Source: a virus. From it: a stretch of DNA of 33,426 nt. Location of the stretch: the IMG/VR virus record IMGVR_UViG_3300032288_002609, positions 1 through 33,426 of that record; one strand, 5' to 3'. Under the pieces are notes generated by a model. That model was not told the origin of the DNA. It made no database searches and saw only the letters and a program-made list of their open reading frames with translations. Positions 905-27,199 of this stretch are shown piece after piece. The translations under genes and the position numbers were made by a program. How positions within the stretch are numbered: position 1 is the first letter of the stretch; every line of letters begins with the position of its first letter.

Positions 905-913
905 ATATTTATA
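905..913 (+). promoter_or_regulatory. ATATTTATA box before the 922 gene; overlaps GATAAATA
   Basis: The 9-mer ATATTTATA ends 8 nt before the ATG at 922. It overlaps GATAAATA at 900-907, which matches the NATAAATA form of T4-type late promoters. No Shine-Dalgarno lies between the box and the ATG. Promoter function is inferred from recurrence of the motif in this window. Confidence 0.4.
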
Positions 914-921
914 GATATATT

Positions 922-1203
922 ATGGACAATATCAGATTTAAAATAGCACGTTATGAACTTCAAACGGGGGCTGAAAATAGCACCAGAAGATGTGTTGGTT
1001 TTATTGTTGAAAGAGAAGATAATGTTGAAAAACAAATATATCATGAGATTGCATTGACCGGATCACAACATCTTGGCAAGACTACTGAAGAATGTGTTGA
1101 TCTCGCTTTTAATTTATTGAGCGGATCGATTTCTATTTCAGCACAAAAATTATTAAATTCATCATCGGATGTTATTAATTCTTATTATATACCAAATCTT
1201 TAA
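922..1203 (+). CDS. Small protein of unknown function (93 aa)
   Basis: I place the start at the ATG at 922, which follows an ATATTTATA box by 8 nt. The frame is open further upstream, but that would overlap the fibre gene by more than 50 nt. The product is a soluble, mixed-charge protein (MDNIRFKIARYELQTGAENS...) without membrane segments or a recognised motif. It lies directly between the fibre gene and a glycosyltransferase, so a fibre assembly or virion accessory role is possible, but nothing in the sequence shows this. Confidence 0.65.
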   Translation: MDNIRFKIARYELQTGAENSTRRCVGFIVEREDNVEKQIYHEIALTGSQHLGKTTEECVDLAFNLLSGSISISAQKLLNSSSDVINSYYIPNL

Positions 1204-1208
1204 TATTA

Positions 1209-2234
1209 GTGAAAAATGTTACATTAAGTTCGTTTTATAATTTTGGATCTGGATATGGGGAAGTGTTACGTACACTATTAGAAGAACTACCCAAGTATAA
1301 TTACAATATAATTCCTAGAACTTATAGCGTTATACATTCTGATTTTTTGCAGTACTTCAATAATAAAAAACTAAATGACCCGAATTGTTTAGATTTTAGT
1401 TTATTGAGTTTAACCAATGATATAGGTTCAACGAATCCATTCATGCAAATGAATTTTGATAGACCCCGCATATTATATACAATGTGGGAAAGTACCAGAA
1501 TAAATGATTTGATGATTGAAATATTGAGTAAATACAAACATATATTTGTACCAAATCATTATAATAAATTTAATTTTATTAATCAAGGTTTGAATACTAA
1601 TATTGATGTTCTTCCATTATTTTGTGACACAAATCATTATGTGTATAGTGAACACAAGGTTCGTGACAAATTTGTTTTTGGAGTATCAAATGAAGATCCT
1701 CGTAAAAATATATCAAAAGTTACGAAGTGTTTTCTTAAAGCATTTAAAGGTTATACTGATGTTGAGTTGCATATAAAAACAAATGAATCTATACAAAAAC
1801 ATTTTGATAATAAACTCAGATATGTAACACAAAAATTGTCAAAAAATGATCTTCGTGATTGGTATTATGATTTGGATGTTTATTTAAGTGGGGCTACGTG
1901 TGAAGGGTGGGGTATGATGCAACAAGAAAGCATGTGTTGTGGTAGACCGATTATATACACTAGTTATGGTGGACTAGCTGAATTTGCTAATTCAAAAAAT
2001 GGATTTGAAGTTGGATATGACGAGGTATATAGTGAAAGTTGTTGGGGCGATTATGGGGGTAAATGGAGTGAGTTTAAAGAGGATGAGTTTATAGACATGA
2101 TGAAATATTGTTATAATAATAGAGATATTGTTTTTGCTAGGGGGAAACAATCTTCTTTGGATGCATCTGTATATACCAAAGATCAATTTATAAAAAACAT
2201 AAATAAAGTTATAGATCTATATATAAACGTATGA
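1209..2234 (+). CDS. GT-B fold glycosyltransferase, GT4-like
   Basis: The 341-residue product begins with a GTG codon five bases after the previous stop. The N-terminal half starts with a beta strand and a Gly-rich loop (SFYNFGSGYGEVL), as in GT-B enzymes. The C-terminal half has EGWGMMQQES with Glu232 and Glu240 in the EX7E spacing of GT4 enzymes, followed by CCGRPIIYTSYGGLAEFA, the usual nucleotide-sugar binding region. Family knowledge predicts a retaining transferase using a nucleotide sugar. The target is unknown: it could modify the Ser/Thr-rich collagen-like fibre just upstream, phage DNA bases, or the host surface. The gene is very AT-rich and overlaps the next gene by 4 nt (ATGA). 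The function class is well supported; the substrate is not. Confidence 0.8.
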   Translation: MKNVTLSSFYNFGSGYGEVLRTLLEELPKYNYNIIPRTYSVIHSDFLQYFNNKKLNDPNCLDFSLLSLTNDIGSTNPFMQMNFDRPRILYTMWESTRINDLMIEILSKYKHIFVPNHYNKFNFINQGLNTNIDVLPLFCDTNHYVYSEHKVRDKFVFGVSNEDPRKNISKVTKCFLKAFKGYTDVELHIKTNESIQKHFDNKLRYVTQKLSKNDLRDWYYDLDVYLSGATCEGWGMMQQESMCCGRPIIYTSYGGLAEFANSKNGFEVGYDEVYSESCWGDYGGKWSEFKEDEFIDMMKYCYNNRDIVFARGKQSSLDASVYTKDQFIKNINKVIDLYINV

Positions 2235-2575
2235 TTGATAATAACAGAAAACCTTTGTTTGAATATTCCGATTTGGAGTTAAAAGCTCTTGGTTTTGATT
2301 TGTTGGAAATAATTGACAATTACAAAAATGACTTGACATTAATTCGAAATGAAATTACGCGCCGGAAAGCGTCTGGAGTTTTAACTTCTATTAAGGAAAA
2401 TGAATTGCCTAATATAATTAATAAAAATAAATCTGAAGTTAAAGAACAATCCGAGATGGTTACTTTTGATCCTGAAGAATATGCTGGACCATATAAGGTA
2501 TCTTCAAACGACGAAAGCGATTACAAAAATTTTGAAAGTGACAATAGTTTAATAACACCTTTGAGAAAAATATAA
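2231..2575 (+). CDS. Unknown protein, 114 aa
   Basis: This gene overlaps the glycosyltransferase stop by 4 nt (ATGA), so it is probably translationally coupled. The product is hydrophilic, with a helical N-terminal half (YSDLELKALGFDLLEIIDNY) and an acidic, Asn/Ser-rich, probably flexible C-terminal half. No cysteines, membrane segments or recognisable motifs are present. The next gene starts 3 nt after its stop, so both belong to one transcript. I do not recognise the family. Confidence 0.65.
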   Translation: MIDNNRKPLFEYSDLELKALGFDLLEIIDNYKNDLTLIRNEITRRKASGVLTSIKENELPNIINKNKSEVKEQSEMVTFDPEEYAGPYKVSSNDESDYKNFESDNSLITPLRKI

Positions 2576-2578
2576 TAT

Positions 2579-2857
2579 ATGGATAATACAATTAAATTCA
2601 CAGAACTAGAAATGGCTGAAATTGCTAAACTTCAAGAATCATATCAAGAGAAAATATTTGCTCTTGGTCAATTAGAGCTTGATGAAATTAATGCACAAAA
2701 TGTGCTTGATGATATTAAAAAAAGTAGAGAAGATGTGCTTAAAGGCTGGCAAGATTTGCAATCATTAGAACAGAAGCTTATTAACACATTGGCTGAAAAG
2801 TATGGTGATGGAAGCCTTAACTTGAAGGATGGAACATTCAAGCCTAATTTAAAATAA
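2579..2857 (+). CDS. Small helical/coiled-coil protein of unknown function (92 aa)
   Basis: The ATG lies 3 nt after the previous stop. Residues from about 8 to 75 look like one or two long amphipathic helices with repeated Leu/Ile and many Glu/Lys (LQESYQEKIFALGQLELDEI), consistent with a coiled-coil hairpin. The C-terminus (GDGSLNLKDGTFKPN) looks like a short beta hairpin. Small proteins of this shape are frequent in T4-like genomes and are usually uncharacterised. This is the last gene before the promoter and repeat region at 2858-2984. Confidence 0.65.
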   Translation: MDNTIKFTELEMAEIAKLQESYQEKIFALGQLELDEINAQNVLDDIKKSREDVLKGWQDLQSLEQKLINTLAEKYGDGSLNLKDGTFKPNLK

Positions 2858-2858
2858 C

Positions 2859-2886
2859 TTGACATCCTGAATATATAAAGTATAAG
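2859..2886 (+). promoter_or_regulatory. Sigma70-like promoter TTGACA-N16-TATAAG
   Basis: TTGACA at 2859-2864 is separated by 16 nt from TATAAG at 2881-2886, six of six and five of six matches to the sigma70 boxes. It lies immediately downstream of a gene and about 100 nt upstream of the HAD-nucleotidyltransferase gene. The same TTGACAT start appears before gp32 and before the AAA+ ATPase gene. Predicted from sequence only. Confidence 0.55.
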
Positions 2887-2892
2887 CAAATG

Positions 2893-2968
2893 CAAGCGCT
2901 ATGCTTAATTAACTATATTATTTTCTTTAAATATTCCTGTTAAATAAGCATAACAAGCGCTAAGCATG
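2893..2968. repeat. Nested inverted and direct repeats in the 2858-2984 intergenic region
   Basis: Two 14-nt arms, TATGCTTAATTAAC (2900-2913) and GTTAAATAAGCATA (2939-2952), pair at 13 of 14 positions around a 25-nt AT-rich loop. Overlapping them is a 12-nt direct repeat, CAAGCGCTATGC (2893-2904) and CAAGCGCTAAGC (2954-2965), with one mismatch. TAAGCAT occurs again at 2961-2967. The block lies between a sigma70-like promoter and the next start codon, so it could be an operator, an mRNA leader structure or a replication element. No T-run follows the stem, so a simple terminator is unlikely. Confidence 0.6.
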
Positions 2969-2971
2969 CTA

Positions 2972-2980
2972 ATATTTATT
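2972..2980 (+). promoter_or_regulatory. ATATTTATT box 4 nt before the 2985 ATG
   Basis: An ATATTTATA-like box with one change at the last base ends 4 nt before the ATG at 2985, and no Shine-Dalgarno is present. It resembles the boxes before the genes at 8941 and 16575, with the same 4-nt gap. Confidence 0.35.
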
Positions 2981-2984
2981 ATAA

Positions 2985-4148
2985 ATGATTAATAGCAAGT
3001 TTAAGATCTATGTTGATATGGATGGTGTGCTTACCGATTGGGAAAAGCAATTTAAGCGTTATAGTGGAGGCATACCTGTAGAAACTTATGAGTCAGAACA
3101 TGGGTCTGTTAAACGATATGAGTTTGTAAAAAATAATAGTCCTGGTTTTTATGCATCGATGGAGTGGATGCCTGATGGAAAGCTGTTGTATAGCTTTCTT
3201 AAAGATTTACCTATTGAAATTTTAAGCCATGCTACTGATGCTCAGTCTGCCGAAGGAAAATTGCAGTGGTTAAAAAGTAACAATATTAAGGCTAAACCAA
3301 ATTTAGTTCCAAATCGAGCGGATAAAAGCAAATTTGCTAATAAAGATGCTATATTGATTGATGACAAGACTGAAACTATTGATGAATTCAATAAGGCTGG
3401 CGGAATAGGTATACTTCATACTGATGCTGTTACAACCATCAATAAGCTTAAAGAAATACTTGGTGTAAAAGAAAAACATAGAATCTATAATAGTGTTTTA
3501 AATCCAGAAATATGGAATGGTGATGTTTTAAAACCTGAAGTGTTAGATAAGATGCTTAAGGTTGCTAATGCTTTTTACAAAGATACCGAGCTTAACGTAC
3601 CGATAGAAGACATTTATTTTTTGGGAAGTACTGCTGGTTACAATTGGACACCTAACAGCGATATAGATCTTCATATACTAGTTGATTTCAGCAAGATTGA
3701 TCCAAATAAAGAATTAGTGAAGAAATATGTTGACGGGTTAAAAAACAAGTGGAACCAAGAACATGATATTCATATAGGTGATCATCAAGTTGAAGTTTAT
3801 ATACAAGATATAAACGATGTTAACAGAAGCCAAGCAGTTTATAGTGTTCTTAAAAATAGCTGGGTTAAAAAACCAAATTATCAAGAAATAAAAATTGACA
3901 AGGAAAATATCAAGAAAAAATACGAGCAATATGTCAAAATGATTGATACGGCTATAAAAGAAGGAAATGTTGATTTGATGAAGAACATTATTAAACGTTT
4001 ATATGATATGAGAGAATCTGGTTTAAGTACAGGCGGCGAGTATAGTGTTGAGAATTTAGTATTTAAGTTGCTAAGATCAACTGGATACATATCCAAACTT
4101 AGACAAAACGTAAAAGCTATCTACGACATTCATCTCAACAAAGTTTAA
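2985..4148 (+). CDS. HAD-family phosphatase fused to a Pol-beta-type nucleotidyltransferase
   Basis: The 387-residue product has two enzyme domains. Residues 7-160 form a HAD domain of the 5'(3')-deoxyribonucleotidase type: motif I DMDGVLTD has nucleophile Asp11 and acid/base Asp13, and the late motif ILIDDKTETIDEF has the Asp126-Asp127 pair. Residues about 165-300 carry a nucleotidyltransferase core: Gly214-Ser215 followed by SDIDLHI with Asp226 and Asp228, and a plausible third carboxylate, Glu270, in VEVYI. All expected catalytic acids are present, so both halves could be active. The last 90 residues are helical. Substrates are unknown: nucleotide monophosphate hydrolysis plus NMP transfer to RNA, protein or a small molecule are all possible. 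An ATG start fits the box 4 nt upstream. Domains are well supported; the joint function is open. Confidence 0.8.
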   Translation: MINSKFKIYVDMDGVLTDWEKQFKRYSGGIPVETYESEHGSVKRYEFVKNNSPGFYASMEWMPDGKLLYSFLKDLPIEILSHATDAQSAEGKLQWLKSNNIKAKPNLVPNRADKSKFANKDAILIDDKTETIDEFNKAGGIGILHTDAVTTINKLKEILGVKEKHRIYNSVLNPEIWNGDVLKPEVLDKMLKVANAFYKDTELNVPIEDIYFLGSTAGYNWTPNSDIDLHILVDFSKIDPNKELVKKYVDGLKNKWNQEHDIHIGDHQVEVYIQDINDVNRSQAVYSVLKNSWVKKPNYQEIKIDKENIKKKYEQYVKMIDTAIKEGNVDLMKNIIKRLYDMRESGLSTGGEYSVENLVFKLLRSTGYISKLRQNVKAIYDIHLNKV

Positions 4149-4176
4149 AAAAAACGCCAAATATATAAAGTTTACT

Positions 4177-4189
4177 ATATTTATAAATA
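4177..4189 (+). promoter_or_regulatory. T4-type late promoter box TATAAATA before tail tube gene
   Basis: TATAAATA at 4182-4189 is an exact match to the T4 late promoter element recognised by gp55-type sigma. It overlaps ATATTTATA at 4177-4185. The spacing of 22 nt to the gp19 start leaves room for a short leader containing AAAGGA. T4 tail genes are likewise late-transcribed. TATATAAAGT just upstream (4162-4171) may be a second element. Confidence 0.65.
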
Positions 4190-4197
4190 AGAATCTT

Positions 4198-4203
4198 AAA
4201 GGA
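4198..4203 (+). promoter_or_regulatory. Shine-Dalgarno AAAGGA of the tail tube gene
   Basis: AAAGGA ends 8 nt before the ATG at 4212, close to ideal spacing. It is one of only about four clear Shine-Dalgarno sites in this window, fitting the high expression needed for a tube protein present in many copies. Confidence 0.6.
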
Positions 4204-4211
4204 AAAAACAT

Positions 4212-4703: not shown

Positions 4704-4722
4704 TACTTATACCATATGTTTT

Positions 4723-4750
4723 AAAACCCCACAAATAAATGTGGGGTTTT
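4723..4750 (+). terminator. Rho-independent terminator after tail tube gene
   Basis: AAAACCCCACA (4723-4733) and TGTGGGGTTTT (4740-4750) form a perfect 11-bp stem around the loop AATAAA, followed by more T residues. It ends the gp19 transcript before the next gene at 4774. Confidence 0.85.
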
Positions 4751-4761
4751 TTGTTTTATTG

Positions 4762-4770
4762 ATATTTATA
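4762..4770 (+). promoter_or_regulatory. ATATTTATA box 3 nt before the 4774 ATG
   Basis: The exact 9-mer ends 3 nt before the ATG at 4774, directly after a strong terminator. The downstream gene therefore needs its own promoter, and this box is the obvious candidate. If transcription starts a few bases after it, the mRNA would be leaderless. Confidence 0.45.
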
Positions 4771-4773
4771 TTC

Positions 4774-5553: not shown

Positions 5554-5570
5554 AATAACTGAAAAAGTTA

Positions 5571-5598
5571 TATAAAGTTCTATATATTGTTATAAAGT
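5571..5598 (+). promoter_or_regulatory. Two TATAAAGT boxes before the gp26-like gene
   Basis: TATAAAGT occurs at 5571-5578 and again at 5591-5598, the second ending 1 nt before the ATG at 5600. The same 8-mer is found at 2874-2881 and 4164-4171, also in intergenic DNA. It could be a weak late promoter variant of TATAAATA. No Shine-Dalgarno is visible. Confidence 0.3.
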
Positions 5599-5599
5599 T

Positions 5600-6412
5600 A
5601 TGAGTGACGAAATTTCCATTACAAGACAATCATCTGTTAATCCAAAACCAGCAGCTCCAACGTTTCCAACAGAAATAGTTGATCTACCAAGTCAAGGACA
5701 CTTTTACCCATCAAATAGTAAATTGTCCACCGGTCAAGTGGAAGTTAAGCTGATGACTGCTAAAGAAGAAGATATTCTTACCAGCCCAAATCTACTTAAA
5801 AAAGGTATTGCGGTTGAAAAGCTGATTGAATCATTGGTAGTAGATAAAGATATTGACTTGGACCAGATTCTTGTGGGTGATAAAAATGCCTTGATTTTTG
5901 CAATTAGACGATTAGCATATGGTGATAATTATGGACCAGTAGAAATAACCTGTCCAAAATGTTCTGCGGTAAACAAACAAAACGTAGATCTATCAGAGAT
6001 TTCATACAAGGAAGTGGAGTTAGATAACTATCCAAGGGGTGTAAATGAATTTGAATACACACTGCCAACTTCAAAGATAGTAATTAAGTTTAAGTTATTG
6101 ACTGCTGCCGATGAAAAAGCAATTGAGCGTGATATTGAAGGATTTGCTAAGTTGAAGAAAGATTCATCGAGTGAAATTACAACACGTTTGAAGTATATGA
6201 TTACTTCAGTTAATGGAGATACTGATAAAGCCAAGATCAAGTCTTTCATTGATAACAATATGTTGGCAAGAGATAGTAATGCATTTAGACAATATGCAAA
6301 GACATTCTCTCCCGATGTTGATAGTCGATTTAACTTCTGCTGTTCTGAATGCTCTAACCAAGAAAGGGTAGCCGTACCAATGACGGTTCAATTTTTTTGG
6401 CCTAACTCCTGA
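5600..6412 (+). CDS. 26: Baseplate hub/tail assembly protein, T4 gp26-like (zero-frame product)
   Basis: The 270-residue product resembles the T4 gp26 baseplate hub family: an opening like LPSQGHFYP, the central block KLMTAKEEDILTSPNLLKKG and LIFAIRRLAYGDNYGPVEITCPKC. Two cysteine pairs, Cys118-Cys121 (CPKC) and Cys248-Cys251 (CSEC), look like a four-cysteine zinc site. In the family this protein acts in baseplate hub assembly or as a tail assembly chaperone; it is placed just before the tape measure gene. The zero-frame ORF ends shortly after a run of seven T at 6392-6398. A 70-codon open frame continues in the +1 (or -2) frame with chaperone-like sequence, so a longer frameshifted form is likely. 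The family assignment is fairly safe; the exact role is less so. Confidence 0.75.
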   Translation: MSDEISITRQSSVNPKPAAPTFPTEIVDLPSQGHFYPSNSKLSTGQVEVKLMTAKEEDILTSPNLLKKGIAVEKLIESLVVDKDIDLDQILVGDKNALIFAIRRLAYGDNYGPVEITCPKCSAVNKQNVDLSEISYKEVELDNYPRGVNEFEYTLPTSKIVIKFKLLTAADEKAIERDIEGFAKLKKDSSSEITTRLKYMITSVNGDTDKAKIKSFIDNNMLARDSNAFRQYAKTFSPDVDSRFNFCCSECSNQERVAVPMTVQFFWPNS

Positions 6413-6611: not shown

Positions 6612-6615
6612 GTGG

Positions 6616-6624
6616 ATATTTATT
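6616..6624 (+). promoter_or_regulatory. ATATTTATT box before tape measure gene
   Basis: ATATTTATT ends 12 nt before the ATG at 6637 in the 25-nt gap after the frameshift ORF. There is no Shine-Dalgarno in the gap. It is one base different from the ATATTTATA boxes at other starts. Confidence 0.3.
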
Positions 6625-8928: not shown

Positions 8929-8936
8929 TATTTATA
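8928..8936 (+). promoter_or_regulatory. ATATTTATA box 4 nt before the 8941 ATG
   Basis: The exact 9-mer overlaps the final base of the tape measure stop codon and ends 4 nt before the next ATG. There is no Shine-Dalgarno, so the box accounts for most of the 12-nt gap between the two genes. Confidence 0.4.
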
Positions 8937-8940
8937 ATTA

Positions 8941-11439
8941 ATGGCAAATAGTCAAACATTCGTAGAGGGTTTTGGTGGAGCAGATGGTCAAGTCACCACT
9001 TTATCCCAGATTCAAGGAGCAGGTCTTTCATTACCTCCTAACGCTGCCACATTTATTAACATCAGACGGGGTGGCAAGTTAGAGACGTTGTTTTTAGCAA
9101 ATGGTAACGATCAAGTACTTTATACTAAAAACAAACCACAAGATCTGTATCTTAAAGGACTGGTAACATCCCAACAATATATTTATAAAAACCCAAATGA
9201 GGGACAAAGAACCAAAATTGGTGGTAATAGATCGTTGCCTGTAAGTTCTGCGGTTCAAGATACTACTAGAATAAGAAAGTTCTTGGGATCAACTGCTGGT
9301 GTTAAGTTTACTGGTAAACAGCTTATTCTACAAGGTTTTCAATCATTCGATGAAACTAAGGTTTATAACCCAGCGATGCCGTTAATTGCCGCTATACGTT
9401 CCGCTACATTCGGATTGGTTGATCGTCCAACCCGTCACATAGATACAAGTAATATATTAACAGGATTATTGGGTGGTACTGGTTTATCAAATGCCGTAAG
9501 TGCAGTAGGTCAATTATTGGGTAGCGCACCTCCACAACCAGCTCCACCACGTAGTAGCGTTGCTAGTGCTGCTAGTAATGGATTGGGACTATCAACATTA
9601 ACCTCTTTAGTTGGTGGTGGCGATAATTCAAGTAGAGTTGTTACCTCAATTGCTAGAGATGGTGTAAAGGACTTACTAAGAGGTAATACTGCTACAAATG
9701 CTTATAATAATCCTAGATATCAACGTTGGATGTCAAATGCTGGTGGTAACTTCTTTAGCAGATTACTAAGTGGTGTTGGTAGATTTTTTCAAAACAATAC
9801 TTTAATTGGTGGTATACTTCCACCAAAACAACCATGGCCAGCAACATATCGTGCTGATGAACAAACATACGAAATGATGTTGAATGCTGGTAAGTTGTTT
9901 AATCCAACTCAAACTGGTATTGCAGGCGGTGGTATATTAAGTGGTTTGTTGAATTCACTTGGATTTGGAAAAAAGGCTGATTACTCTCTAGCTGTAAATC
10001 AACGTTTTTATGGCAAGTCAAAGAATAAAACATCTTTGAACAGATTGATCATAGTAAAAAATATCAGAAATCAAGCTGTAGATTATACAAAAGAAATTGG
10101 TGTATTATCAAAAGATAAGAATAACTTACGTAGTAATAAATTAACTCAAAAAGCAATCACTCCATCTGGTGATTCTAATAGATATAGTGACGTAGTAAAA
10201 GTAGATGATGACAATGAATATTCAGATCAAATACTAAACTATAAAACTTATCTAGATAACCAATCTGGATTCAAGACAACTTATAGTGACCAACAAAATA
10301 ATAAGGTCAAAGAAATAATCGAAAATTTAGATAAAGCAATTAATGATATTGCTGGTGCAAATGATAGTAAGTATAGCACCAATAAAAAAAGTTTACAACC
10401 TTTACAATTTGCTAAATTTAGCAATGATGGAAAACGTATTGGTGCAAATTACCTAAAAGAACTTGACCCAACCAAGTTGAACGATCCATATCCTAATAAT
10501 GACACATATCAAGGACGTTTTCGTAGGGATGAAACCGCTGCAAATAAAGTACCAACACGTTTGGGTGAAGGATCAAATGATAGATACATATATCCAACCA
10601 ACAACGTTGATTATGTTAACTCTCTTCAAGTATTAGACCAAGAAGAATTTACTAAACAATATTCAACTACAGATAAATTTGGTGTGTATGGTCCTGATAT
10701 CGTAAAGTTTTACTTTTATGATATTGTTAACCAAAAATATATTCCATTTAACGCTACCGTAAAGTCTATTAACGACAACAACAATGCAACTTGGGAAACG
10801 GTGGAATATTTGGGTCGTCCAGACAAGTTATTTTACTACAAAGGATTTGAACGTCAAGTTAGCTTTAATTTTACCGTTAATGCACATAGTGTTAAAGAAT
10901 TGATGCCTATGTGGCAACGTATAAACTATTTGGTTGGATTAACCAGACCAGCAAATTACACATCTCAACAATATGGTGGATACATGGTGCCACCTATGGT
11001 TCAATTAACACTGGGTGATTTTTATAAGAATCATTTTGTTGTTATCACTAGTTGTAACGTTACTATACCAGATGATGCTTCGTGGGAAACAATACCAGAA
11101 GATGCATCGCAAAGTTGGTACTATGGTCCAAATAATGGTATACAATGGCTAAACTCAGATACTAGTATAGATCCAAGAGGAAACAAGGCTAGATCAAAAG
11201 GAAGATTTGCACAATTTCCAAGAACAGCAGATATCAGTTTACAAATGAATGTTCTTGAGAAAGATCGTCCTAAGACTGGTAGAGCAATCTGGGGAGACGC
11301 TCCAGTACCAACGTTTAATCTTTCTGAGATCGGAGAGGGTGTTGAAACTGCAGATAATTATGGTGGTAAATCATACACTGATCCTTCAAAGAACACATTC
11401 TCACAAAATGTTAGAACCGATGTGGATATTATAAAATAA
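8941..11439 (+). CDS. Large baseplate/tail structural protein (832 aa)
   Basis: I do not recognise a named T4 counterpart. The N-terminal 130 residues carry beta-rich sequence (SLPPNAATFINIRRGGKLET). Residues about 145-350 are Gly/Ser/Ala-rich with short hydrophobic pieces, and about 380-540 are Asn/Asp/Lys-rich and probably flexible. Residues about 570-770 form a compact domain with FYYKGFERQVSFNFTVNAHSV, a following MWQRINYLVGLTRP and MVPPMVQLTLGDFYKNHFVV. This pattern is found in tube-initiator and baseplate hub proteins of many contractile phages, where it caps or extends the tube. The next gene, a LysM-like protein, starts 1 nt after the stop, and the tape measure is just upstream. A baseplate hub or tube-initiator role is therefore likely; the Gly/Ser part is unusual. 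Confidence 0.65.
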   Translation: MANSQTFVEGFGGADGQVTTLSQIQGAGLSLPPNAATFINIRRGGKLETLFLANGNDQVLYTKNKPQDLYLKGLVTSQQYIYKNPNEGQRTKIGGNRSLPVSSAVQDTTRIRKFLGSTAGVKFTGKQLILQGFQSFDETKVYNPAMPLIAAIRSATFGLVDRPTRHIDTSNILTGLLGGTGLSNAVSAVGQLLGSAPPQPAPPRSSVASAASNGLGLSTLTSLVGGGDNSSRVVTSIARDGVKDLLRGNTATNAYNNPRYQRWMSNAGGNFFSRLLSGVGRFFQNNTLIGGILPPKQPWPATYRADEQTYEMMLNAGKLFNPTQTGIAGGGILSGLLNSLGFGKKADYSLAVNQRFYGKSKNKTSLNRLIIVKNIRNQAVDYTKEIGVLSKDKNNLRSNKLTQKAITPSGDSNRYSDVVKVDDDNEYSDQILNYKTYLDNQSGFKTTYSDQQNNKVKEIIENLDKAINDIAGANDSKYSTNKKSLQPLQFAKFSNDGKRIGANYLKELDPTKLNDPYPNNDTYQGRFRRDETAANKVPTRLGEGSNDRYIYPTNNVDYVNSLQVLDQEEFTKQYSTTDKFGVYGPDIVKFYFYDIVNQKYIPFNATVKSINDNNNATWETVEYLGRPDKLFYYKGFERQVSFNFTVNAHSVKELMPMWQRINYLVGLTRPANYTSQQYGGYMVPPMVQLTLGDFYKNHFVVITSCNVTIPDDASWETIPEDASQSWYYGPNNGIQWLNSDTSIDPRGNKARSKGRFAQFPRTADISLQMNVLEKDRPKTGRAIWGDAPVPTFNLSEIGEGVETADNYGGKSYTDPSKNTFSQNVRTDVDIIK

Positions 11440-15225: not shown

Positions 15226-15243
15226 TTGACATACTGATATAGT
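15226..15243 (+). promoter_or_regulatory. TTGACA element and TATAGT before the polymerase-like gene
   Basis: TTGACA at 15226-15231 begins 1 nt after the previous stop, and TATAGT lies at 15238-15243. The 6-nt gap is too short for a normal -35/-10 pair; a -10 at 15248-15253 (TAAATG) would give 16 nt but is weak. The TTGACAT start matches the elements at 2859, 18958 and 30177. Confidence 0.3.
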
Positions 15244-16561: not shown

Positions 16562-16570
16562 ATATTTATA
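16562..16570 (+). promoter_or_regulatory. ATATTTATA box 4 nt before the 16575 ATG
   Basis: The exact 9-mer ends 4 nt before the ATG at 16575, with no Shine-Dalgarno in the 21-nt gap after the polymerase-like gene. Arrangement and spacing match the 8941 start. Confidence 0.4.
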
Positions 16571-16574
16571 ATAG

Positions 16575-18545
16575 ATGAACTTTAGATCTATTGTAAATGA
16601 TATTTGTTGTGATTCCAGAATAAAGGATGGTGTTCTCAGACTAGAGAATGCAGAACACGTTTTTATTGTACAGGAGTATTTAGAAAAGGCTGGATATTCA
16701 GTCGATGAAATTGTTGATAAAACAGCAAATCTATTTGAAGCAGGTAGATTTCCAGAACGTCAGGCTTATAATAAAGATGGTATATTAGTAACTTTTCCAA
16801 GCAAAGAATACAGAGATCGTGCTGTAAACAAAGGCACACACTTTGCCGAAAATCCAAAAAAGGCTCAATCAAATATATTTTCTCAGCCAGGCGATTTGTC
16901 TACAGCTGGTGCTGACGAAGAAAAGCCAAAGGAAAAACAAGATACTGTATCAATAGACAAAGAAGTTCAAAAAGATGTCGAGGCCGATGACAATGCAGAC
17001 GATAGAACACCTAAAGAAAAACAACAAGACGCTGTTGCAAATGTTGCAATATTACAAGGTCAAACTCCATTAGTTAATTATAGTGTTGATGAAGCGGTGA
17101 AGTATGGGTTCTACAAGAAGGGAATGATGTGGTATGATAACGAGGGTAATTTGATTGGAGAACAAGTTTTTGATGAAGCTTCTGGTAAAAAAGTTATTAC
17201 TAAAGGTAAACCTGAATTAACAAAAAACGATTTATCTAATTTGGAAACCTTAAGATTACTTGGGTTAGAAAAATTTGAAGAAGAGGAAATTATGCAACAC
17301 TTAAACGATAACGTTGCTGGTGTGACTCTTTCTCCAGGCTCTAATAATAAGTATGGATTAACAACTCCTGTAAACAGAAACGGTTTACAAAACATTTTAA
17401 ATGATGAGGGTGAGTTAATAATTACATATTCAGGCGGTACTAAAAAAATTAGAACCAAGGATAACATAAGAATAGCACAATGGAGTACTGCTAAATCATA
17501 TAATGATGTTGATTTTAAAAGAGCACTGATGGTGTACGATTTTTATCAGAAAAATAAAAATAAAATTGAATTGGTTGCAAAACCAGCAAGAGGTATTGGT
17601 TATGAAAAAATGCAGGTTCAAAATCTGAATACTTGGTTTGATAAACACGATGTTGTAGAACCACTAAGATTATACATTTCAGACGAACTCAACAAATTTA
17701 GAGATACAGGAGTAAATGTAAATGGTGCCACCAAATTAGCTGGTACCGGAAAAGCCGATTTAGCTCTCACAGAAAACCAAACACCTAAATTTTGGATTTC
17801 ATATAAACATGGCAATTATTGGACCGAAGAAGGATCATCACTTGCTACAGTTCCATTCCAACAATATGGTAGTATAAAGACTTTACATAAAAAGTTAAGT
17901 ACTGAAAAAGGTAAGTGGAATCAAATAATAAACAACTTTTTAGATAAGCTTATACCAAACGTAAAGAGCACTTTTTCTATAAAAAGCGATGAAAAAATAG
18001 AAAAATTTGGACAGCTTAAACCAGATCAGATGGAGTTGTTTTCTGCAAACTTTCCAACTATTAAAAACGTATTTGTTAATCCAGCAAATGACCGACTAAA
18101 CAAAATGTTTTATTTCTTACCAAGCGGATTTAACGCTTGGATGGATATGTTGGATGGTACAGATGAAGCTAGACAAATTGCTGGTATGTCAATTTATGGT
18201 TTAGACTTTAAGTTAAACTCAACAAATTATGGTCCAGAGAATGTACAGTGTTTGATTCAAACCAACGAACCATTGTCTGTAGATTATAATTATGATCAAG
18301 ATAACGAACCAGATGGTGTAAAAGTTTCTACGGATAAAAGAGGACATATATTATTTAATCCAAACTTGCCTGCACCTAAAGATGCAGAAGATCCAATACT
18401 ACAATATAGACCTGTGTTAAATGCTAGATATACAGAAGTTGAAAACTTTGTATTTACAAGAAGCAACACTGTAATAATTTTGTTGGGTTGTAGAATATTA
18501 GTTATGCCTCATGGTAAAATTCCAGGCACATCAATTAAATTATGA
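16575..18545 (+). CDS. Unknown 656-aa protein with possible nuclease-like core
   Basis: The N-terminal 90 residues are folded (LENAEHVFIVQEYLEKAGYS). Residues about 95-160 are Lys/Glu/Asp-rich and probably disordered, and the rest looks globular. Near residues 390-412 there is GTGKADLAL followed by FWISYKHGNYW, which puts Asp395 and Lys411 in a D-x(n)-xK arrangement like that of PD-(D/E)XK nuclease cores, with Ser409 in place of the usual Glu. This is suggestive only. The gene follows the polymerase-like gene and overlaps the next ORF by 4 nt. It lies between tail and replication blocks, so a DNA-processing or virion role are both possible. I do not recognise a named family. Confidence 0.6.
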   Translation: MNFRSIVNDICCDSRIKDGVLRLENAEHVFIVQEYLEKAGYSVDEIVDKTANLFEAGRFPERQAYNKDGILVTFPSKEYRDRAVNKGTHFAENPKKAQSNIFSQPGDLSTAGADEEKPKEKQDTVSIDKEVQKDVEADDNADDRTPKEKQQDAVANVAILQGQTPLVNYSVDEAVKYGFYKKGMMWYDNEGNLIGEQVFDEASGKKVITKGKPELTKNDLSNLETLRLLGLEKFEEEEIMQHLNDNVAGVTLSPGSNNKYGLTTPVNRNGLQNILNDEGELIITYSGGTKKIRTKDNIRIAQWSTAKSYNDVDFKRALMVYDFYQKNKNKIELVAKPARGIGYEKMQVQNLNTWFDKHDVVEPLRLYISDELNKFRDTGVNVNGATKLAGTGKADLALTENQTPKFWISYKHGNYWTEEGSSLATVPFQQYGSIKTLHKKLSTEKGKWNQIINNFLDKLIPNVKSTFSIKSDEKIEKFGQLKPDQMELFSANFPTIKNVFVNPANDRLNKMFYFLPSGFNAWMDMLDGTDEARQIAGMSIYGLDFKLNSTNYGPENVQCLIQTNEPLSVDYNYDQDNEPDGVKVSTDKRGHILFNPNLPAPKDAEDPILQYRPVLNARYTEVENFVFTRSNTVIILLGCRILVMPHGKIPGTSIKL

Positions 18546-18989: not shown

Positions 18990-19053
18990 TCAAGTTGGTT
19001 ACATCTTGATTTAAGTGAATTAAGAATTAACTAATTAACAATTAAACAATTAA
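18990..19053 (+). promoter_or_regulatory. gp32 mRNA leader: small hairpin plus six TTAA steps
   Basis: After a 5-bp stem (TCAAG 18990-18994 with CTTGA 19005-19009) come TTAA units at 19011, 19020, 19027, 19035, 19042 and 19050, spaced 9, 7, 8, 7 and 8 nt. The rest is A/T with almost no pairing potential. In T4 the gene 32 leader has a 5' pseudoknot and repeated UUAAA-type unstructured sites to which gp32 binds cooperatively, about 7 nt per monomer, to repress its own translation. The layout here is the same in outline, so autogenous control is a reasonable inference. Confidence 0.6.
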
Positions 19054-19066
19054 TAAATAAATAATT

Positions 19067-19923: not shown

Positions 19924-19959
19924 AAGCCGGTGGAGTTTTTATACCCCACCGGCTTTCTA
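19924..19959 (+). terminator. Rho-independent terminator between gp32 and uvsX
   Basis: AAGCCGGTGG (19924-19933) and CCACCGGCTT (19946-19955) form a perfect 10-bp GC-rich stem with a 12-nt loop, followed by TCTAG. The T-run is short, so some read-through into uvsX at 19972 is likely. This would give high gp32 and lower UvsX output from one promoter. Confidence 0.75.
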
Positions 19960-19971
19960 GTTATATACGTT

Positions 19972-21105
19972 ATGGCAAAGAAAACTACGGAAAAAGATGA
20001 TCTCCTAGAGAGATTGGCAGACGAACTCAACAAATCCAACAAAGAAGGTGGTAAGGTTGCGTTCTTCTTGGATGAACAAGAAGATCCATCATCAATTAGT
20101 GATTGGGTTAGCACTGGTTCATCAATGCTTGATTTAGCGATCAGTAATCGTCCTCATGGCGGTTTGCCGGTTGGACGTATTGTTGAATTAACAGGCCTTG
20201 AAGGCACTGGTAAGAGTTTGGTTTGCGCACATATTGTTGCAGACACACAAAGAAAAGGTGGTAAAGCACTTTTCATCGACACAGAAAATTCTGAGTCCAG
20301 AGAATTCTGGAAGAGTTTGGGGGTTGACTTGGCTAAAAGCAAGTTGATGTATTCTCAGGCTGAAACCGTTGAAGATATTTTCGACAGAATTGAAAAAGCA
20401 ATCACGTTCATTCGTAAGGATTATCCTGATTTGCTATTGACAATCATTGTTGATTCTGTCGCAGCTGCTTCTACAAAAGCAGAATTGGAAAGTGATCATG
20501 GTAAAGATGGTTATGCTACTGGTAAGTCAATTATTATCAGTAAGGCAATGCGTAAGATTACCAACATGATTGGTCGTCAAAAGGTATTGTTGATCTTCAC
20601 CAATCAGCTACGCCAAAACCTAAATGCTATGGCATTTGGTGACAAGTACGTAGTAAGTGGTGGTAAGGCTCTAGCATATCATTGTAGTGTACGTGTTCGT
20701 CTAAACAATACAGGCAAACTAAAGAAGGGTGAAGTGGTTATTGGTAACGAGTGTAAAGCTGTTGTTATCAAGAATCGTATGGGTCCACCACAACGTCAGG
20801 CTGCTTTTGATATCTACTATGACAGCGGAATCGCTGACTTTAGTAGTTGGATCAAGGTTATGAAAGATGCTGGTCTTGTTAAACAAGGCGGTGCTTACTA
20901 TACCTATCAAAAGAATGATGGTACTGAATGGAAGTTTCAATCAAAAGACTTCATTTCAACACTACAATCGGATTCAAATCTAAAGGAAGAAATTTACTTG
21001 AAGATTTGTGATGCTTGTATTATGAAATATAAAGATCCAAATAGTCAAATCGTTGAAGATGCACAGGTATCAACAGACGAAGGTGACGCTGGCGAAGAAC
21101 AATGA
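19972..21105 (+). CDS. uvsX: UvsX RecA-like recombinase
   Basis: I take the ATG at 19972 (MAKKTTEKDDLL); the frame is open further upstream, but there it would lie in the terminator stem. The 377-residue product is close to T4 UvsX length. Walker A is GLEGTGKS at 75-82, preceded by the RecA/UvsX lead-in STGSSMLDLAISNRPHGGLP; Walker B is within LLLTIIVDSVAA. FTNQLRQNLNAMAFGDKYVV covers the DNA-binding loop region. The C-terminal part has the UvsX-type YYDSGIADFSSWIKVMKDAG and ends in an acidic tail. It would catalyse strand exchange on gp32-coated DNA for recombination-dependent replication. The next gene starts inside its stop codon (ATGA). Confidence 0.9.
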   Translation: MAKKTTEKDDLLERLADELNKSNKEGGKVAFFLDEQEDPSSISDWVSTGSSMLDLAISNRPHGGLPVGRIVELTGLEGTGKSLVCAHIVADTQRKGGKALFIDTENSESREFWKSLGVDLAKSKLMYSQAETVEDIFDRIEKAITFIRKDYPDLLLTIIVDSVAAASTKAELESDHGKDGYATGKSIIISKAMRKITNMIGRQKVLLIFTNQLRQNLNAMAFGDKYVVSGGKALAYHCSVRVRLNNTGKLKKGEVVIGNECKAVVIKNRMGPPQRQAAFDIYYDSGIADFSSWIKVMKDAGLVKQGGAYYTYQKNDGTEWKFQSKDFISTLQSDSNLKEEIYLKICDACIMKYKDPNSQIVEDAQVSTDEGDAGEEQ

Positions 21106-22197: not shown

Positions 22198-22217
22198 TCT
22201 ACACACTTGGGTGTAGA
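22198..22217 (+). other. Hairpin in the helicase gene leader
   Basis: TCTACAC (22198-22204) and GTGTAGA (22211-22217) form a perfect 7-bp stem with loop ACTTGG. There is no T-run, so it is probably not a terminator. It lies 40 nt before the helicase start, with GGAG at 22222-22225 just after it, and could be an mRNA processing or stability element. Confidence 0.45.
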
Positions 22218-22257
22218 CTGGTGGAGTAGTATTAACAAAACATAGAAAGAATATATA

Positions 22258-23646: not shown

Positions 23647-23658
23647 AGTAATTCATAG

Positions 23659-23709
23659 TTGAGACTATAAAAAAAGTGTCAAAAAAAACTTTAAAAAAGT
23701 TAGTCTCAA
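23659..23709. promoter_or_regulatory. Inverted repeat with phased A-tracts in the nrdA leader
   Basis: TTGAGACTA (23659-23667) and TAGTCTCAA (23701-23709) are perfect 9-bp inverted repeats. Between them lie A-runs at 23669-23675, 23681-23688 and 23693-23698, with centres about 11-12 nt apart, which should bend DNA. This may be an operator for RNR expression, a promoter UP-like region, or a replication element. As RNA, the arms could pair across a 33-nt A-rich loop. Confidence 0.45.
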
Positions 23710-23710
23710 T

Positions 23711-23725
23711 GTCTATCAAATAGAC
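23711..23725 (+). other. Second hairpin in the nrdA leader
   Basis: GTCTAT (23711-23716) and ATAGAC (23720-23725) form a 6-bp stem with loop CAA. It is followed by CCTAAAGGATAG, whose AGGA is more than 25 nt from the nrdA ATG, too far for a normal ribosome site unless the RNA folds. Confidence 0.4.
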
Positions 23726-23761
23726 TCCTAAAGGATAGTTATCTTTTACCAATATATTTTT

Positions 23762-26056
23762 ATGAACAAAGAAATTTTTATTAAGAAACGCAGCGGTAAG
23801 ACCGAGAAGTTCAACGCAGACAAAATCAATAAGGTTTTACAATGGGCAACTGAAGACATTAAAGGTGTTGGTTTTGAAGAGGTTGCTATGAATGCACACC
23901 TATCCTTCTTCGAAGGAATGAATTCAAAAGATATTCACAAGATGTTGATTGAAGCGGCAGCTAATTTGATTAACGAAGAAAGACCAAATTATCAATACGT
24001 TGCATCACGATTATTAAACTATCAACTTCGTAAAGAAGTTTGGGGTGGTAAGAATCCACCAAAGTTGTATGATCTTGTAAAAACTAATATTGACGCATTG
24101 GTTTACGATGATGAAATTCTAAACTGGTACTCTAAACAAGAGTTTGATAAGTTGGATGAATATCTGAAACACGATAGAGATTTTAACTTCACCTACGCAG
24201 GTATCAAACAATTGTGTGACAAGTACTTGGTACAGAATCGTTCAACCAAGAAGATCTATGAAACTCCTCAGTTTGCGTATATGTTGATCGCAATGACTTT
24301 CTTTAAAGACTATAAAGAAAATCGTATCGAATACGTAAAGAAAGCTTACAACTATTTCAGCAAACATAAGATCAATCTACCAACCCCAATTATGGCGGGT
24401 GTAAGAACGGTCATGAAGAGTTATGCTTCATGTTCACTCTTCACGGTTGAAGATGATTTACGTAGTATCTTCAGTAACAATAGTGCCGTAGGATTTGCTA
24501 CAGCTAGTCGTTATGGTATTGGATTGAATCTATCCAGACTACGTGCTACAAATGCTCCTATTCGTAATGGTGAAGTGATTCATACTGGACCAATTCCATT
24601 CAGCAAAGCATTTGAATCAACCGTAAAGAGTTGCCATCAAAATGGTATTCGTGGTGGTAGTGCCACCGTAAACTTTGCTTGGTTCCATTATGACATCATG
24701 GACATTTTGGTATTGAAGAATAATCAAGGTACCGATGATAACCGAGTTCGTAAGTTGGACTATTGCATTGGATTGGATAAACTAATCTTTGAACGTTTCT
24801 TGAAGAATCAAGACGTAACACTATTCAGTTACCACGAATGTCCTTCATTATGGAATACATTTGGCATGGAAGGATTCAAAGAGAAATACGAAAAGGCTGA
24901 AGCTAACAAGAACATTAAGTTCAAGAAAACAATACCTGCTCGTGAACTAATCGGACTATTGGCTAAGGAACGTATTGAAACTGGTCGTATTTATACAATG
25001 TTTGTTGATCATGCTAATGAACATGGTAGTTGGTTGGATCAGGTAGATACAAGCAATCTATGTCTTGAAGTAAATCATCCATTGACTCCAATTTATGACG
25101 TAAATGATCCAAATGGAGAAATTGGTGTATGTGTACTCGCCGCTGTAAACTGGCTTGAAATCAAGGACGATGAAGAAATGAAGAATGTTTGTGACGTTAT
25201 TGTCAGAATGTTGGACGCTCTCATCGAACATCAAAATTATTTCGTACCAGCCGCAGAAAACTTTGCTAAGAAGCGTCGTAGTCTTGGTGTAGGTGTAAGT
25301 AACTTGGCTGCTCTATTGGCTAAAGAAGGTTTGAAGTATTGGGATAAAGATGCTCCTAACTTTGTTGCTAAGTGGATGGAAAAGACCAGTTATTATTTGA
25401 TTGACGCTAGTGCTGAGATGGCAAAAGAATTGGGTGCATGTGAAAAGTTCAATCGTACTAAGTTTAGTCAAGGTATTTTACCAATTGACACTTATAAAAA
25501 AGATGTTGATGAATTCATTACTGAACCTCTACATTTGGATTGGGAAGCACTACGTGCTAAGATCAAACAATATGGAATGCGTCATAGTACTTTGACTGCT
25601 TGTATGCCTGTAGAATCTAGTAGTGTAATTCAGAGTTCAACGAATGGTATCGAACCGCCACGTAGTGCTATTAGTTTCAAGGGAAGCAAGAGCAATATTT
25701 TGCCAGTGGTTGTGCCAGGCATTGACAAGTATAAACAAGATTATACATTTGCTTTTGATATGCCAAGTAACGAAGGATACTTGAAGGTAGCAGCTGCTAT
25801 CCAAAAGTTTACTGATATGAGTATTAGTACAAACACATACTATATTCCATCACGTTATCCAGGCAATAAAGTACCTCTACAAGAGGTTATTAAAGACATC
25901 TTGACCGCATACAAATATGGATTGAAGAATCTATATTACGCTAACACCGATGACGGTGATAAGCAGACCGCAATGGAAACAAAACAAGTTGCATCTGAAC
26001 CAAAGATTCAATCACAAGAAGAAAGTGGTTGTGCTAGTGGTGCTTGTGCATTATGA
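23762..26056 (+). CDS. nrdA: Ribonucleotide reductase class Ia, large (alpha) subunit NrdA
   Basis: The 764-residue product has an N-terminal ATP-cone (FIKKRSGKTEKFNADKINKV, residues 3-90), so dATP inhibition may be retained. Catalytic residues are visible: Cys224 in YASCSLF and Cys457 in IGVCVLAAV form the active-site pair, and SNLCLEV holds Asn432, Cys434 and Glu436. The end ESGCASGACAL carries the C-terminal redox cysteine pair reduced by thioredoxin or glutaredoxin. It converts ribonucleoside diphosphates to deoxy forms with NrdB, encoded 12 nt downstream. An unusual leader with repeats precedes it, and no close Shine-Dalgarno is present. No intron, intein or frameshift is seen. Function is secure. 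Confidence 0.95.
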   Translation: MNKEIFIKKRSGKTEKFNADKINKVLQWATEDIKGVGFEEVAMNAHLSFFEGMNSKDIHKMLIEAAANLINEERPNYQYVASRLLNYQLRKEVWGGKNPPKLYDLVKTNIDALVYDDEILNWYSKQEFDKLDEYLKHDRDFNFTYAGIKQLCDKYLVQNRSTKKIYETPQFAYMLIAMTFFKDYKENRIEYVKKAYNYFSKHKINLPTPIMAGVRTVMKSYASCSLFTVEDDLRSIFSNNSAVGFATASRYGIGLNLSRLRATNAPIRNGEVIHTGPIPFSKAFESTVKSCHQNGIRGGSATVNFAWFHYDIMDILVLKNNQGTDDNRVRKLDYCIGLDKLIFERFLKNQDVTLFSYHECPSLWNTFGMEGFKEKYEKAEANKNIKFKKTIPARELIGLLAKERIETGRIYTMFVDHANEHGSWLDQVDTSNLCLEVNHPLTPIYDVNDPNGEIGVCVLAAVNWLEIKDDEEMKNVCDVIVRMLDALIEHQNYFVPAAENFAKKRRSLGVGVSNLAALLAKEGLKYWDKDAPNFVAKWMEKTSYYLIDASAEMAKELGACEKFNRTKFSQGILPIDTYKKDVDEFITEPLHLDWEALRAKIKQYGMRHSTLTACMPVESSSVIQSSTNGIEPPRSAISFKGSKSNILPVVVPGIDKYKQDYTFAFDMPSNEGYLKVAAAIQKFTDMSISTNTYYIPSRYPGNKVPLQEVIKDILTAYKYGLKNLYYANTDDGDKQTAMETKQVASEPKIQSQEESGCASGACAL

Positions 26057-26058
26057 TG

Positions 26059-26065
26059 AAGGAGG
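26059..26065 (+). promoter_or_regulatory. Shine-Dalgarno AAGGAGG of nrdB
   Basis: A full consensus AAGGAGG sits in the 12-nt gap between nrdA and nrdB, only 3 nt before the ATG, shorter than ideal. It is the strongest SD sequence in the window and stands out against the SD-poor background. Confidence 0.65.
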
Positions 26066-26068
26066 AAT

Positions 26069-27130
26069 ATGAAGACAGTACTAAATAAAACAAATATTGA
26101 TGCAGTTAAAAATCCAATGTTTCTCGGTGAAGATCTATCGCTACAGCGATATGATATTCAAAAGTATCCTAAGTTCTATGAACTTTATGATCAGCAACTA
26201 AACTTCTTTTGGAGACCACAGGAAGTTTCGTTGGTCAAGGATATTGCAGATTATAAGAACCTATCGGATGAAGAACGATTTGTGTTTGATAGTAATCTTA
26301 AGTTTCAGACTATGACTGATAGTATGTTGAGTCGTAGTATTCATCAGATGATGAAACATGTTACAAATCCAGAGTTAGAGATTTGTATGAATACATGGAG
26401 TTTCTTTGAAACTATTCATAGTAACTCTTACACATATATTCTAAATAACGTATACCCAGATGCTACCAAGTTTTTTGATAGTGTTCTACAAGATAAAGAA
26501 ATTGTTAAGAGAGCTAAGGCTATTAGTGAGAAGTATGATGCTTTATTGGCAACCGATAAGGATGACATTCGTCAACAGATCTTTGATGCTATTTTGGCAA
26601 CTCAGATTACTGAAGGATTGGTTTTCTATGTATCATTTGCTTGTAGTTTCTACTTTGGATATCGTGGAAAGATGGAGGGTAATGCTAAGATTATCAAGTT
26701 CATTAGCCGTGACGAGAATCTACACGTTGCTATTACCCAAAATATTCTTCGTTATTTGACTGAAAACAAGGAAGAAGGATTCCAAGATATCATCAAGAAA
26801 AGCGAAGATAAGGTATACGAAGCTTATAAAATTGCTGTAGAAGCAGAGAAAGATTGGGCCGATTATCTATTCAGTAAGGGCAACTTAGTTGGATTGACCA
26901 ACGAAAGTTTGAAGAACTATGTAGAGTGGTTGGCTAATAATCGTCTACAAAGTATTGGATATAAGAAACTATATCCAAATGTTAAGTCTAATTCATTGTC
27001 TGGATGGCTTGATAGTTACTATGATAGTAAGAAGTTACAGGTAGCCCCTCAAGAAACTGAATTGAGTAGTTATGTTAAAGGTGTAGATAACACAATTACA
27101 GAGGGAGCTTTTGATGACTTCAAACTATAA
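26069..27130 (+). CDS. nrdB: Ribonucleotide reductase class Ia, small (beta) subunit NrdB
   Basis: The 353-residue product carries the diiron/tyrosyl radical set. ETIHSNSYTYIL gives Glu114, His117 and the radical Tyr121 in the same spacing as Glu115-His118-Tyr122 of E. coli. ATQITEGLVFYVSF contains the next Glu, and SRDENLHVAITQ holds the last Glu-x-x-His pair. Because the radical Tyr is present, this is a standard class Ia enzyme rather than the Phe-type class Ic. The C-terminal tail should bind NrdA. It is co-transcribed with nrdA and followed by a strong terminator. Confidence 0.95.
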   Translation: MKTVLNKTNIDAVKNPMFLGEDLSLQRYDIQKYPKFYELYDQQLNFFWRPQEVSLVKDIADYKNLSDEERFVFDSNLKFQTMTDSMLSRSIHQMMKHVTNPELEICMNTWSFFETIHSNSYTYILNNVYPDATKFFDSVLQDKEIVKRAKAISEKYDALLATDKDDIRQQIFDAILATQITEGLVFYVSFACSFYFGYRGKMEGNAKIIKFISRDENLHVAITQNILRYLTENKEEGFQDIIKKSEDKVYEAYKIAVEAEKDWADYLFSKGNLVGLTNESLKNYVEWLANNRLQSIGYKKLYPNVKSNSLSGWLDSYYDSKKLQVAPQETELSSYVKGVDNTITEGAFDDFKL

Positions 27131-27160
27131 AAACAATTGTAAATAGTTGAAAAATGTAAC

Positions 27161-27187
27161 GGGTACTTTAAATAGTACCCTTTTTTT
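27161..27187 (+). terminator. Rho-independent terminator after nrdB
   Basis: GGGTACT (27161-27167) and AGTACCC (27174-27180) form a perfect 7-bp stem with loop TTAAAT, followed by seven T residues (27181-27187). It ends the nrdAB transcript. Confidence 0.88.
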
Positions 27188-27190
27188 ATT

Positions 27191-27199
27191 ATATTTATA
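27191..27199 (+). promoter_or_regulatory. ATATTTATA box after the nrdB terminator
   Basis: The exact 9-mer begins 4 nt after the terminator T-run and ends 12 nt before the ATG at 27212, with AGG at 27201-27203. Because it follows a terminator, a new promoter is needed here, and this box is the best candidate. Confidence 0.45.

Follow-up and report, generated by a model that had tools for sequence, protein, structure and literature searches.

A TATTTAT[AT] box before probable late genes of a T4-related phage lineage, often 3-6 nucleotides from the start codon, suggests leaderless messages

Late promoters of phage T4 carry the box TATAAATA, are read by RNA polymerase bearing gp55 and are activated by gp33 and gp45, and late transcription in T4 yields leadered messages that are started from Shine-Dalgarno sites. 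The T4 box spans positions -13 to -6, i.e., late RNA starts at nucleotide 6 after it (PMC2988020). A box of a different sequence, TATTTAT[AT], was examined here in a virus fragment of 33,426 bp that carries T4-related genes (IMG/VR record IMGVR_UViG_3300032288_002609, referred to below as the window) and in relatives of that fragment. A first-pass annotation of the window had proposed that a nine-nucleotide form of this box, ATATTTATA, lies close enough to start codons for late messages to be leaderless. The analysis favours, with a probability of about 0.76, the reading that the box is a -10-type element in a class of phage promoters that is most likely late and is read by a gp55-like sigma factor, with transcription starting about 4-5 nucleotides (nt) on and often yielding leaderless messages. 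Leaderless late starts would be unusual for T4-type phages, and no description of the box, or of leaderless late mRNA in T4-related phages, was found in the open-access literature searched; a cultured relative makes testing possible.

Relatives of the gp19 tail tube protein were collected from IMG/VR (80 loci kept, with the gp19 upstream regions of 54 of these viewed), and two further locus sets were gathered via a sigma candidate described below and via the helicase. Among named phages, gp19 identity was 63% for Microcystis phage Mel-JY01, 56% for the uncultured LR756508, 54% for Flavobacterium phage immuto and 42% for Rhodothermus phage RM378. After removal of redundant rows, the set used for counting comprised 1012 non-redundant starts from 184 protein families (the window, L009-L088 and L188-L347), with starts taken from a simple codon-usage gene caller. 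The box was present within 90 nt upstream of 253 of the 1012 starts, in 68 families; dinucleotide shuffles of these stretches averaged 39 and never exceeded 51 in 20 runs. The antisense form of the box was found at 61 starts, which is shuffle level (mean 50.9). Conservation was confined to TATTTAT[AT] and the base preceding it (A/C), the only outside position exceeding 0.25 bits. No -35 element was conserved, positions -40 to -5 reaching at most 0.22 bits in a family-weighted profile.

The distance from the box to the ATG was bimodal. There were no starts with a gap of 0-2 nt, 14 with a gap of 3, 54 with a gap of exactly 4 (from 20 families), 23 with a gap of 5 and 8 with a gap of 6; few starts fell at 7-10, and the remainder were spread widely from 11 to about 55. 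Gaps of 3-6 nt thus accounted for 99 starts in 32 families (shuffle mean 1.85, maximum 5), and 103 of the 253 boxes lay within 7 nt of the ATG. At 20 further starts the box was 68 or 70 nt upstream, with one family for each gap; these starts are possibly mis-called, the true start being nearer the box.

The position at which transcription might begin was sought by measuring the purine frequency at each nucleotide after the box in leadered genes, with the TATAAATA sites of T4 as a control. In T4 the purine peak fell at nucleotide 6 after the box (16 of 21 sites, 0.76). After the TATTTAT[AT] box, nucleotide 4 was a purine in 72 of 85 leadered sites in a first set and in 0.81 of 124 sites in a larger one. 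The peak was at nucleotides 4-5 in immuto (0.87 and 0.90 of 30 sites) and at nucleotide 4 in Mel-JY01 (0.70 of 20 sites, equal to nucleotide 9). As the minimum gap of 3 places the A of the ATG at nucleotide 4, two independent features agree on the start, and transcription would begin about 4-5 nt past the box. The AUG of a close-box gene would therefore coincide with the 5' end of its message or lie no more than about 3 nt from it. This in silico evidence supports a leaderless reading best for genes with gaps of 3-6 nt; for genes with gaps of 8-12 nt, leaders of about 4-9 nt are predicted.

The distribution of Shine-Dalgarno sites, scored as a 4-mer within -20 to -4 of the start codon, followed the gap. 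Such a site was present at 1 of 103 starts with gaps of 7 nt or less, at none of 26 with gaps of 8-14 nt, at 48 of 97 with gaps of 15-60 nt and at 3 of 27 beyond 60 nt, compared with 146 of 759 starts lacking a box. The start codon was ATG in all 103 close-box genes. An in-frame stop between the box start and the ATG was found at 46 of these, an upstream in-frame ATG, GTG or TTG before any stop at 19, and a nearby downstream start with a Shine-Dalgarno site at 2; most, but not all, of the close-box start calls are secure.

A mechanism consistent with these observations can be proposed. The host's RNA polymerase, directed by a gp55-like sigma factor that the phage encodes, would read (A/C)TATTTAT(A/T) as the -10-type element of a phage promoter class, most likely late, and transcription would begin about 4-5 nt past it. 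At many genes the start codon would fall exactly at the transcription start, so that the mRNA would be leaderless or have a leader of a few nucleotides and would be translated without a Shine-Dalgarno site. Boxes at least 15 nt upstream would give a real leader, often with such a site.

In the window itself, the exact ATATTTATA occurs eight times, always on the + strand (positions 905, 4177, 4762, 8928, 9179, 16562, 27191 and 29762), compared with a mean of 1.73 in whole-window dinucleotide shuffles, of which 1 in 100 reached 8. Six copies are within 40 nt upstream of a start and the other two (9179 and 29762) are intragenic. Starts in the window were assembled by hand into a set of 28, which included 922, although the gene caller did not call it, and omitted a 5'-open reading frame, the uncertain TTG gene at 15243/15405 and the alternative ATGs 844, 4741 and 27792. 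TATTTAT[AT] was present within 40 nt upstream of 9 of the 28 starts, where a first-order Markov model gave a mean of 0.89 and never more than 6 in 2000 runs; the exact 9-mer was upstream of 6 (mean 0.20, maximum 3). Scans for canonical sigma-70 promoters gave only shuffle-level results. The first-pass annotation had placed every exact 9-mer correctly, including its strand and the two intragenic copies, its gaps for both the exact boxes and the one-base variants proved accurate, and the enrichment over background in the 40 nt upstream of starts, which it had proposed as a check, is present.

Four window genes have the box, on the + strand like all those listed here, 3 or 4 nt from the ATG: TATTTATT at 2973-2980 (gap 4 to ATG 2985, putative start 2984-2985), and TATTTATA at 4763-4770 (gap 3 to ATG 4774, putative start at the A of the ATG), 8929-8936 (gap 4 to ATG 8941, putative start 8940-8941) and 16563-16570 (gap 4 to ATG 16575, putative start 16574-16575). 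All four messages are predicted to be leaderless. The box TATTTATA at 906-913 is 8 nt from ATG 922, with a putative start at 917-918 and a leader of about 4-5 nt; TATTTATT at 6617-6624 and TATTTATA at 27192-27199 are each 12 nt from their ATGs (6637, and 27212 of a PAS-domain protein), with predicted leaders of about 8-9 nt; and TATTTATA at 27785-27792 is 11 nt from ATG 27804. A longer reading frame from ATG 27792 would overlap this last box and precede the putative transcription start, and 27804 is therefore the likelier start codon. The predicted leaders of 922, 6637, 27212 and 27804, at about 4-9 nt, are too short to leave room for a Shine-Dalgarno site. Upstream of gp19 (start 4212), TATTTATA at 4178-4185 leaves a gap of 26 nt, a putative start at 4189-4190 and a leader of about 22 nt that holds a Shine-Dalgarno-like site, AAAGGA.

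The earlier contrast between close-box genes lacking a Shine-Dalgarno site and gp19 possessing one is thus borne out, both at gp19 and by the 1 of 103 against 48 of 97 counted above. The earlier suggestion that transcripts begin at or just before the ATG fits 2985, 4774, 8941 and 16575, where the putative start is the AUG or 1 nt before it, but does not extend to the four genes with short leaders or to gp19. Two boxes had also been noted directly after terminators, and both hairpins are real candidates: an intrinsic-terminator-like hairpin with an 11-bp stem and a T run at 4723-4750 (+ strand) directly 5' of the 4763 box, and a terminator-like hairpin at 27161-27180 (+ strand), 3' of nrdB and directly 5' of the 27192 box.

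Orthologous upstream regions were compared for 24 window genes, keeping regions that differed at 15% or more of 40 nt, among matches with an N-terminus and 60 nt of upstream sequence. The nine box genes kept the box in 80 of 89 regions: 922 in 2 of 5, 2985 in 14 of 16, gp19 in 30 of 31 (gaps 19-50), 4774 in 3 of 3 (gaps 3-4), 6637 in 2 of 2, 8941 in 5 of 5 (all gap 4), 16575 in 11 of 14 (nine at gap 4), 27212 in 4 of 4 and 27804 in 9 of 9. The box was present in none of 102 regions upstream of six genes of the replication and nucleotide-metabolism region, namely the single-strand binding protein (start 19067), UvsX (start 19930/19972, compared at 19972), 21102, the DnaB-type helicase (start 22258), NrdA (start 23762) and NrdB (start 26069), and in 1 of 127 regions upstream of nine other window genes. 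The box is thus kept or lacking according to the gene, and marks a fixed set of genes. The presence of virion genes in this set and the absence of replication genes from it suggest that the set is a late class; 2985, 4774 and 27212 are not clearly virion genes.

Cultured phages showed related patterns. TATTTATA was among the most enriched upstream 8-mers in immuto (22, with 0.3 expected) and in Mel-JY01 (15, with 1.0 expected), with gaps mostly of 10-34 and 23-52 nt, respectively, and close boxes were rare in both. In RM378, TATTTAA[AT] was found upstream of 32 of 115 starts (0.67 expected), mostly in the gene direction in a genome with genes on both strands; ten of the 32 boxes had a gap of exactly 5 nt, none was closer, and 17 were at 8 nt or less. 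None of those 17 starts had a Shine-Dalgarno site, compared with 21 of 115 overall. The antisense form in RM378 occurred at 16 starts at scattered distances, partly in divergent gene pairs. Annotated coding sequences of RM378 agreed with the gene caller at the compared starts. All three phages resemble the window lineage in their related gp19, in an enriched TATTTA-type box in the gene direction and in a homologous sigma candidate, whereas RM378 differs from it in its box, TATTTAA[AT], and its gap of 5.

The sigma candidate was first apparent as immuto gp118, which matched the gp55 family weakly (E 0.008) and presumably carries a sigma region 2-like segment; a fold comparison was run afterwards. 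Profile A1, comprising 42 IMG/VR relatives of the candidate, matched 11 of 20 records: immuto, Mel-JY01, RM378 (17116-17640, E 2e-11) and eight large IMG/VR contigs. There was no A1 match in T4 or in the window fragment. Five contigs (L189, L192, L203, L245 and L249) had been chosen for carrying the candidate; the independent records are the named phages and the gp19-chosen contigs (3 of 10 positive). Contig 3300036770_003021 carries both the candidate and gp19, and had 8 close-box starts in a sample of 40; of the six contig groups in that sampling, one (3300047550), in which two different contigs had been joined, was left out. An AlphaFold2 model of the candidate (predicted local distance difference test, pLDDT, 75.5; predicted template-modelling score, pTM, 0.43) aligned best to T4 gp55 in 7d7c, a gp55-dependent open complex (Z 10.6, root-mean-square deviation 2.9, 108 residues, 12% identity). 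Sigma factors or sigma-polymerase complexes made up nearly all of the 50 structure-alignment rows. Pfam Sigma70_r2 gave similar values, below threshold, for T4 gp55 (0.004) and the candidates (about 0.03). The divergent late sigma factor suggested by the first-pass annotation therefore has a gp55-like candidate in relatives; its gene is absent from the 33-kb fragment, and it is the presumed reader of the box.

The RM378 homologue of the candidate is the hypothetical protein p020 (L095:17032-17826). The annotated sigma factor of RM378 (128329-128928) is a different protein, ECF-like and belonging to phrog_1740, and is not an A1 homologue. A first syntenic guess in Mel-JY01 (L096:7744-8424) proved to be a head maturation protease. 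Ribosomal protein S21 was considered as a partner in leaderless translation and rejected, as it was present in 3 of 16 records but missing from every close-box-rich contig; it is encoded by Mel-JY01 (L089:22183-22410) and by two IMG/VR relatives (G007 and G010).

The box could instead belong to the host, as a promoter element for its housekeeping sigma factor or for an alternative one, and simply be used by the phage, with leaderless starts being a habit of the host. Leaderless mRNAs occur in many bacteria, and the flavobacterial sigma-A consensus TAnnTTTG is placed at -12 to -5, the same register as the start proposed here (PMC9723704). However, the box mismatches this -7 consensus in its last three bases, and according to the same source leaderless mRNAs make up 5.5% in F. 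psychrophilum, compared with the 103 of 253 boxes within 7 nt of an ATG here. Moreover, phages with Flavobacterium and Microcystis as their recorded hosts use the same 8-mer, and a housekeeping promoter leaves the 0 of 102 in replication genes unexplained. A host element is therefore considered unlikely.

Less probable still is that the box acts in the 5' untranslated region as a translation-initiation or mRNA-stability element, such as an A/U-rich ribosome or S1 site, in transcripts that start upstream. A fixed distance to the ATG in many genes, and the lack of a Shine-Dalgarno site in those genes, would fit such an element, and bacteria without Shine-Dalgarno sites use A/U-rich upstream signals (PMC5397173 and PMC6847099). 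It does not fit the 97 starts at which the same box is 15-60 nt from the ATG, half of them with a Shine-Dalgarno site, nor the purine peak at a fixed nucleotide after the box regardless of the distance to the ATG; the box is also often found right after terminators, where transcription has to be restarted and space is short. Chance in A+T-rich upstream regions, aided by gene-caller bias, might draw on the uncertain starts among the close-box genes (19 of 103 with an upstream in-frame start), but is refuted by the counts (39, maximum 51, and 1.85 in dinucleotide-keeping shuffles against 253 and 99), by the lack of enrichment of the antisense form and by the match between the gene caller and the compared RM378 annotations.

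The preferred reading, of a phage promoter box read by a gp55-like sigma factor, must nevertheless be weighed against several observations that count against it. All of the starts given here are deduced from sequence rather than from mapped 5' ends. When gp19 is left out, nucleotide 4 is a purine at 0.76 of 94 sites, and when families are also counted once the signal weakens to a mean of 0.71 (31 families) against 0.50-0.65 elsewhere, so that nucleotide 4 tops the twelve positions by a modest margin. The uncultured LR756508 had no TATTTATA upstream of 39 starts in 50 kb of its 484 kb, and two large gp19-bearing relatives (fragments of 109 and 114.5 kb) lacked the sigma candidate by A1. The pTM of the candidate model is 0.43, its Z of 10.6 is below the value of about 13 under which helical models can match through a common arrangement, and Foldseek alone gave no match at E <=0.001. 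Sequence profiles tie the candidate to gp55 at E 0.008-0.5 only (hhalign E 0.084, not significant), and attempts to link the two through PHROG, Pfam, PDB sequences and hhalign gave weak or empty results. Finally, the gp45 clamp and gp33 co-activator families were seen in T4 only: of the records searched, 1 of 12 had phrog_223 and 1 of 16 had phrog_254, although divergent members could be missed.

Other conserved features were seen upstream of genes without the box. The baseplate hub gene (start 5600) lacks the box (0 of 9 upstream regions), but its orthologs keep TATATTGTTATAA near the ATG (window 5565-5600; seen in L010, L011, L012, L018, L045 and L046), possibly a second promoter class. In relatives, runs of AATTAACAATTAAACAATTAA stand directly 5' of the ATG of the single-strand binding protein gene (window 19020-19066), a conserved GC-rich hairpin lies 16-50 nt 5' of the UvsX start and is followed by TAGTTATATACGTT (window 19924-19971), and the NrdA upstream region retains ATAGTTATTTTTTACC (window 23720-23761).

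If the preferred reading is correct, the core T4 late system has been rewired in a related clade, in which many late messages begin at the AUG. Late genes and true start codons could then be called from sequence by a simple rule in many uncultured phages, and RM378 (Rhodothermus marinus) and immuto (Flavobacterium) would form an experimental pair for studying how leaderless messages compete during infection. The evidence leans, by a narrow margin, towards a wider view, in which a T4-related branch from the window lineage to RM378 has a fused promoter and start signal (TATTTATAnnnnATG, or TATTTAAAnnnnnATG in RM378), expresses much of its late class from leaderless messages beside Shine-Dalgarno-led genes, starts transcription 1-2 nt closer to the box than T4 and uses a new branch of gp55-like sigma factors.

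Compared with T4 late promoters, the system has in common an 8-bp, A+T-only, -10-type box with no strong -35 element, located before virion genes of T4-related phages, and a gp55-like sigma candidate in relatives. The first-pass annotation had described the box as a reverse-complement-like form of the T4 element TATAAATA. In fact, TATTTATA is its exact reverse complement, but enrichment relative to the genes is confined to the TATTTATA orientation: among 488 starts, TATTTATA was upstream of 110 and TATAAATA of 12. A T4 box read in either direction is rejected for the same reason, the antisense form not being enriched, and a simple overlap with the T4 element does not hold, as the T4 box is not enriched in the coding orientation and the start would fall 4-5 nt after the box, against 6 in T4. 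Failing two defining features of T4 late promoters, sequence and start spacing, the box is a variant and not a member of that class. The system also differs from T4 in that no gp45 or gp33 family member was detected and in that the box is often 3-6 nt from the ATG, whereas in T4 TATAAATA is mostly 13-34 nt from the start, the nearest in the set compared being at 13. With leaderless mRNAs of bacteria and some phages it shares a -10 element about one helical turn before the AUG, the lack of a Shine-Dalgarno site and the exclusive use of AUG. Unlike other leaderless systems, it appears, from the putative starts, to be tied to a single phage promoter class and to be mixed with Shine-Dalgarno-led genes of the same promoter type.

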